A stretch of DNA of 64,000 bases from Candidatus Omnitrophota bacterium (GTDB taxonomy: Bacteria; Hinthialibacterota; Hinthialibacteria; Hinthialibacterales; JAKPRU01). The stretch spans positions 62,001-126,000 of the forward strand of contig JAKQSI010000118.1 of assembly GCA_029570205.1 (NCBI GenBank), given 5' to 3'. The position numbers were made by a program, and so were the translations under genes. The notes beneath the pieces are model-generated. The model made no database searches, was not told the DNA's origin, and was given only the letters and a program-made list of their open reading frames with translations. Below, piece by piece: positions 31,464 through 60,560 of the stretch (its first letter is position 1; each line of letters starts with the position of its first letter).

Positions 31464-31544
31464 AATCTAATCTCCTGCTTGGTCATACATTCTTTTGTCA
31501 GTATAGGGAGTGACCGGAAGCGCGTCCAGAATATCTCCAGAAAG

Positions 31545-31856
31545 TAGGACAGGCCTCTGTGCCTGTCAGATCGTGGCGGTAGGACAGGCCTCTGTGCCTG
31601 TCAGATCGTGGCAGTAGGACAGGCCTCTGCGCCTGTCAGATCGTGGCAGTAGGACAGGCCTCTGTGCCTGTCAGATCGTGGCGAGTAGGACAGGCCTCTG
31701 TGCCTGTCAGATCGTGGCAGTAGGACAGGCCTCTGTGCCTGTCAGATCGTGGCAGCAGGACAGGCCTCTGTGCCTGTCGCGCTGCTCCTTGCCAGGCAGA
31801 GACGCCTGGCCTACTGGGAATTGGAACTGCCAGGCAGAGACGCCTGGCCTACTGGG
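31545..31856. repeat. Palindromic repeat array 1: seven 35/36-bp B units plus two inverted A units
   Basis: B units (GGACAGGCCTCTGTGCCTGTCAGATCGTGGCAGTA) start at 31547, 31582, 31617, 31652, 31688, 31723, 31758; A units (CCAGGCAGAGACGCCTGGCCTAC) at 31792 and 31830. Confidence 0.95.
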
Positions 31857-39527: not shown

Positions 39528-41390
39528 TCAATCCGAATTGTCTTTCCCCAGTCCATGAAGGGAATCCAGCTGCCGTAAATGCTCGCGGGTTTTTTCATCC
39601 AGTTCACCCGACTGGCCGGGTTTCAGCTGTTCACGCAAGGCCTGAGCAAGCCGCTGGTGATCGAGCTTCCTTTTTCGATTCTCCAGGTCGGAGATAACTT
39701 GCGTGAGCAGTTGATCACGTTCTCCGCACACGGGAGCAATATCCGGCGCGGCTATCAGAACGGCTTGGGCAAGTTTGTCTTCGGCAAATAGGCCTTCCAG
39801 CAGAGCAGCCAGGTTCTTATACACACGGGGCTTGATCGGCATAAGGTTTTTGAGAATCGCCGAAAGGGGCAAATGCTCCCGGTCGGGAATCAGGTCCACC
39901 ACACGGTTGATCTGCTCCCGTTCCTCTGCGCGAAGCGGATTGACAGGCAAAGCGAGGTCTTCGTTCTCAACTCGCACCAACCCGAGGCCGTTCAGCGCCA
40001 GGGTAATCAGGTGCATCTTGTCCATTTCGACCGGTGTCAGATTATCCAATCTGACCTCATCTTTCATTTCGATGCTCCCCAATTCCTCGCGTTCGGGGCG
40101 CGTGTCGCGCATTCGTGAGAGGTCCTGACGGATGGCGGTTTCGCTCACTCCCATTTTCCCGGCGAGAAATGTGATGTATTCCGACCGGACAACGGCCTCG
40201 GGAATCCGCCGCAGGATCGGCAGAAGGTCCCGAACGACCGCACGTTGAGCAGCAACTCCCTCCAGCCCATACTGAACCACACTTCGGTTAAAACAATATT
40301 CAAAACCATCCAGCGCATTATCCAGCAAAGCTTTCATCGCATCGGTTCCCTCTTTGGCAAGAAAGGAATCCGGGTCTTCGCCGGACGGCAACACCACAAC
40401 CCGAACAGGAAGTCCGATGGTTAAGAAAACCTCTGCTCCTCGCCGTGCCGCCATCAGGCCCGGCTCATCGCCATCATAAATCAGGTAGATATTTTCTCCA
40501 TATCGTCGAAGGACTCGCGCGTGACTCTCGGTCAATGCCGTTCCAAGCGTTGCGACACTGTTTTCAAAACCGAAACGGTGAAGGGCAATGGCGTCCATGT
40601 ACCCTTCGACCACCAGGGTCCTTCCCATGCGGCGAATCGGCTCTCTTGCCTTCTCAAGCAGATAAAGCGTACGGCTCTTGTTGAACAGAGGGCTTTCGGG
40701 CGAATTGAGATATTTCGGCTCGCCATCGCCAAGAATGCGTCCCCCGAATGCCACCGTTTTGCCCAATGGATTGGCGATAGGGAACATGATCCGGTTGCGG
40801 AACCGGTCGTAGTATCCGCTTCCATCCTGCCGAGGGATAATCAAACCCAGTTCCTGCTGGACCGATTCAGGAATACCCATTCGAGACAATGGGCTCTTGA
40901 GCGCCTCCCAGGAATCGGGCGCATACCCCAGGCGGAATCGCTTGATATCGTTCTGGGAAAGGCCCCTTCGCGCGAGATATTCCTGAGGCGGTTTGGAATT
41001 GGCCAGCATTTTTGAGAACAGATTGGCCGCCGTTTCCATCACCTGTGTCCGGTCGAGATCGGGCCGTTCCCGATTCGCTTTACGATCGTCCTCTTCCAAG
41101 TTCAGGCGCACACCGGCACGGTCCGCCAGGAATCGCAATGCCTCAAAAAACGACAGGTTTTCGATGGACTGAATAAACGTCAGCGCTGTGCCCCCCTTGC
41201 CACAGCCGAAACACTTGAAGATTTGCCGTTCGGGATGGACACTGAATGAGCCTGTTTTCTCCTTGTGAAATGGGCACACGCCAAAGAAATACTGCCCGCG
41301 CCGTTTGAGAGAGACATAGTTCGAGACAATATCGACAATATCCGTCCGTTCAAGAACCTGATCGATGACTGTCTGGGGGATTTTTGCCAT
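39528..41390 (-). CDS. dnaG: DNA primase
   Basis: IPQTVIDQVLERTDIVDIVSNYVSLKRRGQYFFGVCPFHKEKTGSFSVHPERQIFKCFGCGKGGTALTFI zinc-binding domain; VVEGYMDAIALHRFGFENSVATLGTALTESHARVLRR toprim. Confidence 0.97.
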   Translation of the reverse strand: MAKIPQTVIDQVLERTDIVDIVSNYVSLKRRGQYFFGVCPFHKEKTGSFSVHPERQIFKCFGCGKGGTALTFIQSIENLSFFEALRFLADRAGVRLNLEEDDRKANRERPDLDRTQVMETAANLFSKMLANSKPPQEYLARRGLSQNDIKRFRLGYAPDSWEALKSPLSRMGIPESVQQELGLIIPRQDGSGYYDRFRNRIMFPIANPLGKTVAFGGRILGDGEPKYLNSPESPLFNKSRTLYLLEKAREPIRRMGRTLVVEGYMDAIALHRFGFENSVATLGTALTESHARVLRRYGENIYLIYDGDEPGLMAARRGAEVFLTIGLPVRVVVLPSGEDPDSFLAKEGTDAMKALLDNALDGFEYCFNRSVVQYGLEGVAAQRAVVRDLLPILRRIPEAVVRSEYITFLAGKMGVSETAIRQDLSRMRDTRPEREELGSIEMKDEVRLDNLTPVEMDKMHLITLALNGLGLVRVENEDLALPVNPLRAEEREQINRVVDLIPDREHLPLSAILKNLMPIKPRVYKNLAALLEGLFAEDKLAQAVLIAAPDIAPVCGERDQLLTQVISDLENRKRKLDHQRLAQALREQLKPGQSGELDEKTREHLRQLDSLHGLGKDNSD

Positions 41391-41457
41391 GTTCTCAACC
41401 GGGGGTTATTGGATGGAGATACTGTAGCATTGAGGGGATGAGGAGCGGAGAGCCATA

Positions 41458-41977
41458 GTAGGCCAGGCGTCCCTGCCTGGCAATCGGCGGACCAGTAGGC
41501 CGGGCGTCTCTGCCTGGCAATTGGCGGACCAGTAGGCCAGGCGTCTCTGCCTGGCAATCGGCGGACCAGTAGGCCAGGCGTCTCTGCCTGGAGTAGGCCA
41601 GGCGTCTCTGCCTGGCAATCGGCGGAGTAGGCCGGGCGTCTCTGCCTGGCAATCGGCGGAGTAGGCCAGGCGTCCCTGCCTGGCAATCGGCGGAGTAGGC
41701 CAGGCGTCTCTGCCTGGAGTAGGCCGGGCGTCTCTGCCTGGCAATCGGCGGAGTAGGCCAGGCGTCTCTGCCTGGCAATCGGCGGAGTAGGCCAGGCGTC
41801 TCTGCCTGGCAATCGGCGGACCAGTAGGCCAGGCGTCCCTGCCTGGCAATCGGCGGAGTAGGCCAGGCGTCTCTGCCTGGCAATCGGCGGAGTAGGCCAG
41901 GCGTCTCTGCCTGGAGTAGGCCAGGCGTCTCTGCCTGGCAATCGGCGGACCAGTAGGCCAGGCGTCTCTGCCTGGCA
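41458..41977. repeat. Palindromic repeat array 2: 16 copies of the A unit with modular linkers
   Basis: GTAGGCCAGGCGTCTCTGCCTGG units starting at 41458, 41495, 41532, 41569, 41593, 41627, 41661, 41695, 41719, 41753, 41787, 41824, 41858, 41892, 41916, 41953; spacing 24, 34 or 37 bp. Confidence 0.96.
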
Positions 41978-41978
41978 G

Positions 41979-43172
41979 TCAGCCAGCCCCACCTAAAGCA
42001 TTCGCATAGATCGCATTCAGCCGCGAAACAATTGTCTTCCAGGACAAATCCCCTTCAGCAAGTTCTCTTGCGCGGTGGCCCATGGCGTGCCTCTCGTCCG
42101 ACGGCAGTTGTAATACCTCCAGGATGGCGTTCGCGAAGGATTCCGGCGATGGGTCCGAAACACGACCGATCTGTTTTTCCCGAACAATTACCGCAGAATC
42201 GCCGATGTCATTTGTGACAATGGGCCGACCCGATGCCAGATAATCGCCGAACTTGATCGGCCCGCGCGCACGGTTTGCCAAGGTATCCGCCAGCGGCAAC
42301 AGGTGCATACTCGCCGCACCGAGGAACTTCGGCAGCAGGCTGTACGGAACATCACCCGGCAAATAAACCTGCTCGCCCACACGGAACCGTTCCCTTAATC
42401 CATCCAACGCAGGCGACTCCACGCCACCCCCCACAACCAGTAGCTGACATGATGGAAATTCCTTTAGAACGTGTGTAAAAGCATCTGCGATAAGTTCAAT
42501 ATCCCAAAGGGAATATCCCACAAAGCATAACACCGGATCTTGCGGGCGAAGGCCGATAATCTCCCGGCAAATCTGCTGGTCCAGTTTGGGTATTCCCTCG
42601 ATATCCGCACCCGATGGGATGAACTCCACCCGCTTGGGGTCGATCCCCAGAGAAAGCGCGCGACTGTTCAAAACCGTACTCGTGACAATAACAATATCGG
42701 CAGATCGCTTGGATCCTTCTTCGAGAAATTGCTCCATCCGGTCGATCATAGAGAACGGACGTTTGCCGGTAGTGATCCCACCCGCTGTCCACCAGTCGCA
42801 CCAGTCTGCACAGAAAAGCGCGTCGCTATCGAGGAGCCGTTTGAAATACCATGGGAACGACACGTTGGGGCGATGGTCGAACGCATGAATTACATCCCAC
42901 TTGCTGAATGCGATTCGCCCGGTCCTGAGCAGAATATCGACAGGAGCATAGCCGCCGTCATGCTGACCTACTTGCCGGAAACGCGGTGTCTCCCAGATAC
43001 GCACACCATCCCGCATGTATTGATTGCCCAGGGGACTGCATCGCCGGGAGACAGTCCACAGATCCACCTCATGGCCCAGTCTGACCAGTTCGCGGGCGAA
43101 ATGAAAAGCGCGAAAAAACGTTCCCCGCCAAGCCAGGTTATGATTAAGAAACAGCAATCGCATGATATTCAT
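41979..43172 (-). CDS. Glycosyltransferase (GT4-like)
   Basis: MNIMRLLFLNHNLAWRGTFFRAFHFARELVRLGHEVDLWTVSRR...VLCFVGYSLWDIELIADAFTHVLKEFPSCQLLVVGGG...LANRARGPIKFGDYLASGRPIV. The upstream part of the track ORF is repeat array translation. Confidence 0.88.
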   Translation of the reverse strand: MNIMRLLFLNHNLAWRGTFFRAFHFARELVRLGHEVDLWTVSRRCSPLGNQYMRDGVRIWETPRFRQVGQHDGGYAPVDILLRTGRIAFSKWDVIHAFDHRPNVSFPWYFKRLLDSDALFCADWCDWWTAGGITTGKRPFSMIDRMEQFLEEGSKRSADIVIVTSTVLNSRALSLGIDPKRVEFIPSGADIEGIPKLDQQICREIIGLRPQDPVLCFVGYSLWDIELIADAFTHVLKEFPSCQLLVVGGGVESPALDGLRERFRVGEQVYLPGDVPYSLLPKFLGAASMHLLPLADTLANRARGPIKFGDYLASGRPIVTNDIGDSAVIVREKQIGRVSDPSPESFANAILEVLQLPSDERHAMGHRARELAEGDLSWKTIVSRLNAIYANALGGAG

Positions 43173-43173
43173 C

Positions 43174-43498
43174 CGACAGGCACGGAGGCCTGTCCTACTA
43201 TTTTTGCAGTAGGCCAGGCGTCTCTGCCTGGAGTAGGCCAGGCGTCTCTGCCTGGCAATCGGCGGACCAGTAGGCCAGGCGTCTCTGCCTGGCAATCGGC
43301 GGACCAGTAGGCCAGGCGTCTCTGCCTGGCAGTTCCAATTCCCAGTAGGCCAGGCGTCTCTGCCTGGCAATCGGCGGACGACAGGCACGGAGGCCTGTCC
43401 TACTATTTTTGCAGTAGGCCGGGCGTCTCTGCCTGGAGTAGGCCAGGCGTCTCTGCCTGGCAAGGAGCAGCGCGACAGGCACGGAGGCCTGTCCTACT
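43174..43498. repeat. Palindromic repeat array 3: seven A units and three inverted B units
   Basis: A at 43209, 43233, 43270, 43307, 43345, 43414, 43438; B (GACAGGCACGGAGGCCTGTCCTACTA) at 43175, 43380, 43474. Confidence 0.95.
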
Positions 43499-59531: not shown

Positions 59532-60560
59532 ATGACGGAAATTACTCAACCGCATGACCACTTTTTTCGATTGACATTCTCCGACCCGGAAATCGTCGAG
59601 GACATCCTTTTCAACAACCTCCCCCAAATTGCCTGTCACCTGGTCCCGGGCAGCCTGGACAACACCGGGGAATCCTTCGTGAGTCCCCAATTGCGCGAGT
59701 ACATATCCGATATGCTTTATCGTGCTCAGCTCAAAAGGGGAAAAGGGGCCTACCTCTACTTATTGTTCGAGCATAAGAGCCATCCCGAACCCGAGGTGGC
59801 GTTCGATCTGCTGCGCTACATGGTGCGGATTTGGGAACGGTTTCGCGATCAAGGATCCCCCGAAGGTTTCCCGCATATCATTCCGATCGTATTCTATCAT
59901 GGAAAAGAGTTCTGGAACGGCAATACAAATTTCGCCGGTCTTTTTGAGCAGATCGAGGAACTGCAAGCATACGTACCGACCTTTGAATATTGTCTTTATG
60001 ATCTGTCGCGGTATAGTGAAAAGGAGATTCGAGGGCAGGTATTCTCGCGGGTCGCTTTGCTGTCGATGAAATATATTTACAGCGCCGATTTGGGGGAGGA
60101 GTTTGTGCGGATTTGCGAATCGTTATCCAGTGCCCGGGCAAACCCGCGTTTTCTTGATTTCCTGCGGAGCCTGCTGGAATATATCGGGGCCGCATCGGAC
60201 CGGGTCAGCGAGGAGCAGATACAAGCGGGTGTGAAGAAGATTCTACCGGATTCAGGAGATGAAATCGTGCAGACGTTATTTGACAGACTCCGTGAACAAG
60301 GTTTGGAACAAGGTTTGGAACAAGGTCTGGAACGAGGTCTGGAACAGGGTCTCATGCGAGGCCGCGAGGAAGGACGCGAGGAAGGGCGTCGAACCGGATT
60401 ACAGGAAGCTATTGAGCTGGCTTTGGAATTGAAATTCGGAGATGAGGGATTATTGTTGGCTCCCAAGATTCAAGAGATTTCCTCTGTTGAGAAGCTCGAG
60501 CAGATCAAGAACGCGATCCGAAAATCAGAGAAACTGATCGAAATAGCCTTGTTGCTTTGA
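59532..60560 (+). CDS. Rpn family recombination-promoting nuclease/putative transposase (PD-(D/E)XK)
   Basis: MTEITQPHDHFFRLTFSDPEIVEDILFNNLPQIACHLV...YISDMLYRAQLKRGKGAYLYLLFEHKSHPEPEVAFDLLRYMVRIWE; C-terminal EQGL repeats. Confidence 0.92.
   Translation: MTEITQPHDHFFRLTFSDPEIVEDILFNNLPQIACHLVPGSLDNTGESFVSPQLREYISDMLYRAQLKRGKGAYLYLLFEHKSHPEPEVAFDLLRYMVRIWERFRDQGSPEGFPHIIPIVFYHGKEFWNGNTNFAGLFEQIEELQAYVPTFEYCLYDLSRYSEKEIRGQVFSRVALLSMKYIYSADLGEEFVRICESLSSARANPRFLDFLRSLLEYIGAASDRVSEEQIQAGVKKILPDSGDEIVQTLFDRLREQGLEQGLEQGLERGLEQGLMRGREEGREEGRRTGLQEAIELALELKFGDEGLLLAPKIQEISSVEKLEQIKNAIRKSEKLIEIALLL
60294..60353 (+). repeat. 12-bp tandem repeat (five copies) inside the Rpn gene
   Basis: GAACAAGGTTTG GAACAAGGTTTG GAACAAGGTCTG GAACGAGGTCTG GAACAGGGTCTC, encoding EQGL/ERGL units. 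Confidence 0.95.

Follow-up and report, generated by a model that had tools for sequence, protein, structure and literature searches.

Tandem palindromes between dnaG and a glycosyltransferase gene of a Candidatus Omnitrophota bacterium as a probable cluster of GTAG-tagged repetitive extragenic palindromes

Structure of the dnaG–glycosyltransferase gap

The window analysed here is a 64-kb stretch from the draft genome (G000) of a Candidatus Omnitrophota bacterium (assembly GCA_029570205.1, contig JAKQSI010000118.1, positions 62,001 to 126,000). It contains the DNA primase gene dnaG and a GT4-type glycosyltransferase gene, both encoded on the minus strand, and between them a tandem array of palindromic units designated array 2, which is located downstream of the glycosyltransferase gene and upstream of dnaG (Table 1). 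Array 2 occupies ~520 of the 588 bp in this gap. The TGA stop codon of the glycosyltransferase gene (minus strand, 41979-41981) follows 2 bp beyond the array end, and the start codon of dnaG lies 67 bp from the array. A previous inspection of the letters (the sequence-only reading) had described sixteen palindromic units at this place, spaced by 24, 34 and 37 bp, filling nearly the whole gap and abutting the stop codon; all of these were recovered.

The sixteen units start at positions 41458, 41495, 41532, 41569, 41593, 41627, 41661, 41695, 41719, 41753, 41787, 41824, 41858, 41892, 41916 and 41953, with successive unit-to-unit spacings of 37, 37, 37, 24, 34, 34, 34, 24, 34, 34, 37, 34, 34, 24 and 37 bp, hence exactly three classes. 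Each unit joins GTAG to the palindrome GCCAGGC(GTCTCT)GCCTGGC; on the plus strand it reads GTAGGCCAGGCGTCTCTGCCTGG (23 nt), after which, with three exceptions, comes a C. CCGGGC is present in three units and GTCCCT in another three, and the other ten are identical. The linkers following the 23-nt unit are A (3), CAATCGGCGGA (7), CAATCGGCGGACCA (4) and CAATTGGCGGACCA (1). Two deletions, one of 10 bp between GG...GG and one of 3 bp (CCA), distinguish the linker classes, which come back in scrambled order. Modular linkers had been proposed by the sequence-only reading and are present, with the correction that the linker at 24-bp spacing is a single nucleotide (A) and not absent. The 18-base core, with up to 3 mismatches allowed, matched at 25 places in the whole window, compared with 0.10 expected by chance. 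The short tandem repeat GAACAAGGTCTG (period 12) at 60294-60361 is unrelated to these units.

Palindromic repeats with regular spacing may recall an array of clustered regularly interspaced short palindromic repeats (CRISPR), and the open frames of 147-270 aa that cross array 2 on the minus strand may recall a repetitive protein-coding region. Either identity is extremely improbable. The spacers of a CRISPR array would each be unique; those between the units of array 2 are identical linkers, copies of one sequence and its deletions, and the CRISPR candidate was therefore rejected. Spacings of 24, 34 and 37 bp shift the reading frame, and the dnaG site of the congeneric genome G002 lacks a frame of such length. 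All frames are open through array 2 because the repeat has no stop codons; the open frames were accordingly dismissed as a by-product and the protein-coding candidate rejected.

Identity of the repeated unit

When folded as single-stranded DNA, the 24-mer unit forms a stem of 8 bp and a loop of 4 nt, with GTAG left unpaired (-8.9 kcal/mol, z = -4.4). Copies of the exact pattern GTAGGNCNGGCN6GCCNGNC number 473 in the 4.39-Mb genome versus 2 in the reversed control. Two congeners contain 151 and 61 copies, and six genomes from the same order contain none. Besides the A-type unit of array 2 there is a subtype B with the unit GTAGGACAGGC(CTCCGT)GCCTGTC. The second stem pair, compared in 179 units, was C-G in 106, A-T in 56, T-A in 2 and G-C in 2, so that 166/179 were paired; since all four Watson-Crick combinations are represented, the stem is conserved through two-sided changes.

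The distribution relative to genes and the pairing of neighbouring units were studied in a sample composed of the window and 60 stretches (0.88 Mb), the first 20 of which had been picked partly from contigs known to bear the repeat. The sequence-only reading had named spread of the unit inside coding regions as evidence against its interpretation; among the 43 clusters of the first sample, none was located in an open reading frame, as judged from crude gene calls. With the same crude calls, the orientation of genes at the repeat-bearing gaps (convergent 9, co-directional 19, divergent 4) showed no clear departure from that at all gaps (55, 126 and 50, respectively).

An unpaired GTAG at the end of the palindrome, a high copy number, a position outside genes and compensatory stem changes define GTAG-type repetitive extragenic palindromes (REPs), and the unit has all of them. 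Array 2 is thus very probably built of A-type GTAG REP elements clustered in tandem, the non-autonomous palindromes of a system formed by REPs and a REP-associated tyrosine transposase (RAYT). It adds to this known kind.

REP-associated transposase genes

A search for the Y1 transposase family retrieved four places in the genome, and two of the proteins exceeded the NCBIfam cut-off for REP-associated tyrosine transposases (NF047646). The first, at locus L003 (G000:C89:46017-46526, 170 aa; 86.6 bits against a cut-off of 80), has 13 REP units to one side and 9 to the other, the majority of subtype B, and one unit overlaps its stop codon by two bases. L003 hence has the layout of a REPtron, a RAYT gene flanked by the same REP family. 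In G002, an orthologue with 90% identity has the same neighbouring genes and is surrounded by A and B units. Repeated hairpins within 900 bp, many of them tagged GTAG or GTGG, accompany 51 of 62 relatives from many phyla, which is an uncontrolled count. At L004 1250-2260 (G000:C48), the second RAYT gene (NF047646, 96 bits) adjoins a tandem array of a different palindrome, GGCGGGAGCTGACGCTCCCGCC, and therefore the genome appears to hold two REP/RAYT systems. A gene for an IS200/IS605-type transposase was also observed (L001 969-1535, G000:C51; NF033573 over cut-off); it starts beside a separate repeated region with frames open on both strands.

Subtype rule and array architecture

Most REP units are organized in head-to-tail arrays. 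Among the 253 neighbouring REP pairs of the 0.88-Mb sample, head-to-tail neighbours belonged to the same subtype in 218 of 220 cases, while inverted neighbours belonged to different subtypes, A with B, in 31 of 33, many of them 2 bp apart. This rule was noticed in the first sample and upheld in the second; the Fisher p of ~5e-35 is overstated, as pairs within one array are not independent. An array order of - + + + + recurs, that is, one inverted partner and then a run of the other subtype, the inverted partner often being 2 bp off with CA or TG between the GTAG tags. The simplest account of these same-subtype head-to-tail and different-subtype inverted pairs is therefore a founding element consisting of an inverted A/B pair and arrays that arise by tandem growth of one arm. 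Single-unit counts cannot be relied on, because at 3 mismatches the reversed-sequence control yields 17-20 matches per 0.42-0.46 Mb.

Most arrays own a linker: AATCGGCGGA in arrays 2 and 3, and AGATCGTGGC, ACCGTATGAATACA, AAGTCAGATTTCCCA, GATGGTAGCCG and others elsewhere. A few short linkers, for example AGCTAA or the single A, recur between arrays. Array-specific linkers indicate that arrays grow by duplication of a unit together with its adjoining DNA and not by repeated insertion of bare units. As a separate and exploratory observation, the GTAG-bearing strand of a stretch tends to be the one poorer in G (one-sided p 0.02); the tendency is weak, was not relied on, and possibly reflects a replication-strand bias.

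The same sites in congeneric genomes

The dnaG–glycosyltransferase gap of G002, with flanks ~94% identical, contains only A'-B-A', and the outer junctions TGACTGCCAGGC... and ...CTACTATGGCTC are the same in both genomes. Across the glycosyltransferase gene, at the site of array 3, G002 has one B unit versus ten units here, and the site of the array at 31.5 kb holds one B unit in the congener G001 versus nine units here. The 12-unit array on contig C20 has no counterpart at the corresponding site of G002; an array of 8 units on C19 does have one in G002, with related spacing, and none in G001. It follows from these comparisons that within the genus arrays have been inherited, changed in size, and gained or lost; the number of units at a given site ranges among congeners from none through one or three to many, which shows the change in array size.

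Several points weigh against the interpretation of array 2 as a REP cluster enlarged in this genome. In G001, the dnaG site has neither the glycosyltransferase gene nor a REP; the direction of change at this site is consequently unproven, and units may have been lost in G002 instead of gained here. The RAYT at L003 is known from its sequence, a PDB sequence search with it retrieved no relative at E <= 0.01, and its neighbourhood is mostly B-type whereas array 2 is A-type. Lastly, the unit number of array 2 is taken from a draft assembly whose array-bearing contigs often end inside arrays (C1, C2, C5, C14, C16, C19, C21, C23 and C97), so that copy numbers are provisional; it is probably the REP arrays that set a limit to the assembly. 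In part, unit number and unit order could be a product of collapsed or wrongly joined repeats, given these contig ends and an array length of ~520 bp that has to be set against the sequencing read length. We regard this as rather unlikely, since the units and linkers bear distinct variants in a definite order, and both edges of array 2 join unique DNA, with the same edges in G002.

Possible effects on the flanking genes

The position of array 2 between two same-strand genes raises the question of a terminator, an attenuator or an mRNA-stabilising element selected to control the glycosyltransferase-dnaG unit. The RNA of the region folds better than shuffled sequence (z = -3.2), and REPs elsewhere are reported to affect mRNA (PMC3733652). 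However, none of the 16 hairpins is followed by a T-run on either strand, terminator-like sites occur in the region at the frequency expected by chance, and Rfam contains no family matching the window. Whether the array folds and terminates transcription had been raised by the sequence-only reading; folding is predicted for DNA as well as RNA, and termination is not supported. An intrinsic terminator was rejected on the missing T-runs and the chance-level scan. Moreover, three units suffice in G002 and none is present in G001; such wide variation in unit number among congeners argues against a required role in dnaG control, and a selected control element is improbable. If transcribed, array 2 could nonetheless form a row of hairpins affecting mRNA stability between the two genes. 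Most likely, array 2 is selfish or neutral DNA that is tolerated because it lies in a gap without translation.

Neighbouring arrays

Two further arrays of mixed subtype lie in the window (Table 1). The sequence AATCGGCGGA followed by a unit has 13 occurrences in the genome, and 13/13 are in the two arrays that flank the glycosyltransferase gene. The linkers GCGCTGCTCCTT and GGGAATTGGAACT are common to window positions 31779-31852 and 43328-43497, 12 kb apart. The genome contains only two instances of GCGCTGCTCCTT adjoining an A unit, one in the array near 31.8 kb and one in that near 43.5 kb, in opposite orientation, which suggests that neighbouring arrays have exchanged or copied pieces.

Table 1 Features of the window around array 2
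Feature	Position	Strand	Remarks
Array 1: 7 B units (+), 2 A units (-)	31544..31852	.	Has the linkers GCGCTGCTCCTT and GGGAATTGGAACT in common with array 3, oppositely oriented
dnaG (DNA primase)	39528..41390	-	TIGR01391, 451 bits
dnaG leader	41391..41457	-	Conserved as far as the array edge in both G001 and G002
Array 2: 16 A-type GTAG REP units (probable), all GTAG-first on the plus strand	41458..41976	+	Linkers A, CAATCGGCGGA, CAATCGGCGGACCA
GT4-type glycosyltransferase	41979..43172	-	Longer listed open reading frame (to 43463) merely reads on through array 3
Array 3, other side of the glycosyltransferase gene: 7 A units (+), 3 B units (-)	43175..43497	.	Shares the AATCGGCGGA linker with array 2

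Proposed origin and growth of array 2

A small inverted A/B group of REPs would first have been placed between the glycosyltransferase gene and dnaG by RAYT-dependent cutting and joining of single strands; TnpAREP is known to cut and join single-stranded REPs (PMC8266576). A tandem duplication of one arm with its adjacent linker would then have followed, for which replication slippage and unequal recombination across the palindromes are the likeliest mechanisms, and small deletions may have yielded the three linker classes. These classes could later have been shuffled as several units at a time were duplicated or converted, in part through exchange with neighbouring arrays. The scrambled order agrees with the proposal of the sequence-only reading that the array grew by more than one amplification event. 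Its exclusion of simple slippage is not established: private linkers show local tandem duplication, and slippage, unequal recombination or a transposase could each produce it. We infer that array growth proceeded by slippage, by unequal recombination or through the RAYT.

The RAYT itself might enlarge the array by repeated local cutting and joining of one REP arm and its flank, or by priming their local copying. Arrays strictly follow the two subtypes, one arm at a time, the GTAG strand shows the exploratory tendency given above, and TnpAREP cuts the REP and not its inverted complement, leaving a 3'-OH able to prime copying (PMC8266576). On the other hand, direct repeats of 24-37 bp with hairpins are prone to slippage and unequal recombination, which give local duplication and private linkers without a transposase. 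Growth driven by the RAYT is therefore a minority option. Its specific form, in which the RAYT amplifies one arm of the inverted pair in place together with flanking DNA and so creates single-subtype head-to-tail arrays, is more doubtful still. If true, it would represent a strand-specific tandem amplification undescribed for REP transposases in the REP/RAYT literature compared here.

Both the spreading of REPs by RAYTs and the growth of REP clusters are still open questions. The genus offers a compact test set for them, with two marked subtypes, private linkers from which the history of an array can be read, and congeners that differ in unit number at one site. Together these separate two steps that are usually blurred, the placement of an inverted A/B pair and the later one-sided tandem growth.

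Comparison with known REP/RAYT systems

The GTAG-tagged REP families surveyed by Di Nocera et al. (2013; PMC3733652) resemble the family described here in the GTAG tag, the short stem-loop, the hundreds of copies and the intergenic location. Stem subtypes with complementary changes, inverted heterodimers and clusters tandemly reiterated with flanking DNA have likewise already been reported there. An identical consensus among the 24 published consensus sequences is possible. In contrast, the head-to-tail bias, strong in our case, was rare in the 2013 survey; this bias and the clean subtype rule are the less usual traits.

In Pseudomonas fluorescens SBW25, the inverted REP pair is the likely unit (REP doublets forming hairpins, REPINs), and tandem REPIN clusters that include flanking sequence have already been reported beside RAYT genes (Bertels and Rainey 2011; PMC3116915). 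The tandem unit of SBW25 is usually a whole REPIN with its flanks, whereas single-subtype arms with spacings of 24-39 bp are repeated here. The REPtrons with TnpAREP of E. coli, Stenotrophomonas and Marinomonas (PMC8266576) share the RAYT gene surrounded by its own GTAG palindromes, as found at L003. TnpAREP is biochemically active, whereas the RAYT described here is a sequence-based assignment with no PDB match at the threshold given above. In layout, the Stenotrophomonas REP, with an 8-bp stem and a 3-nt loop (PMC8266576), is similar to the unit of array 2.
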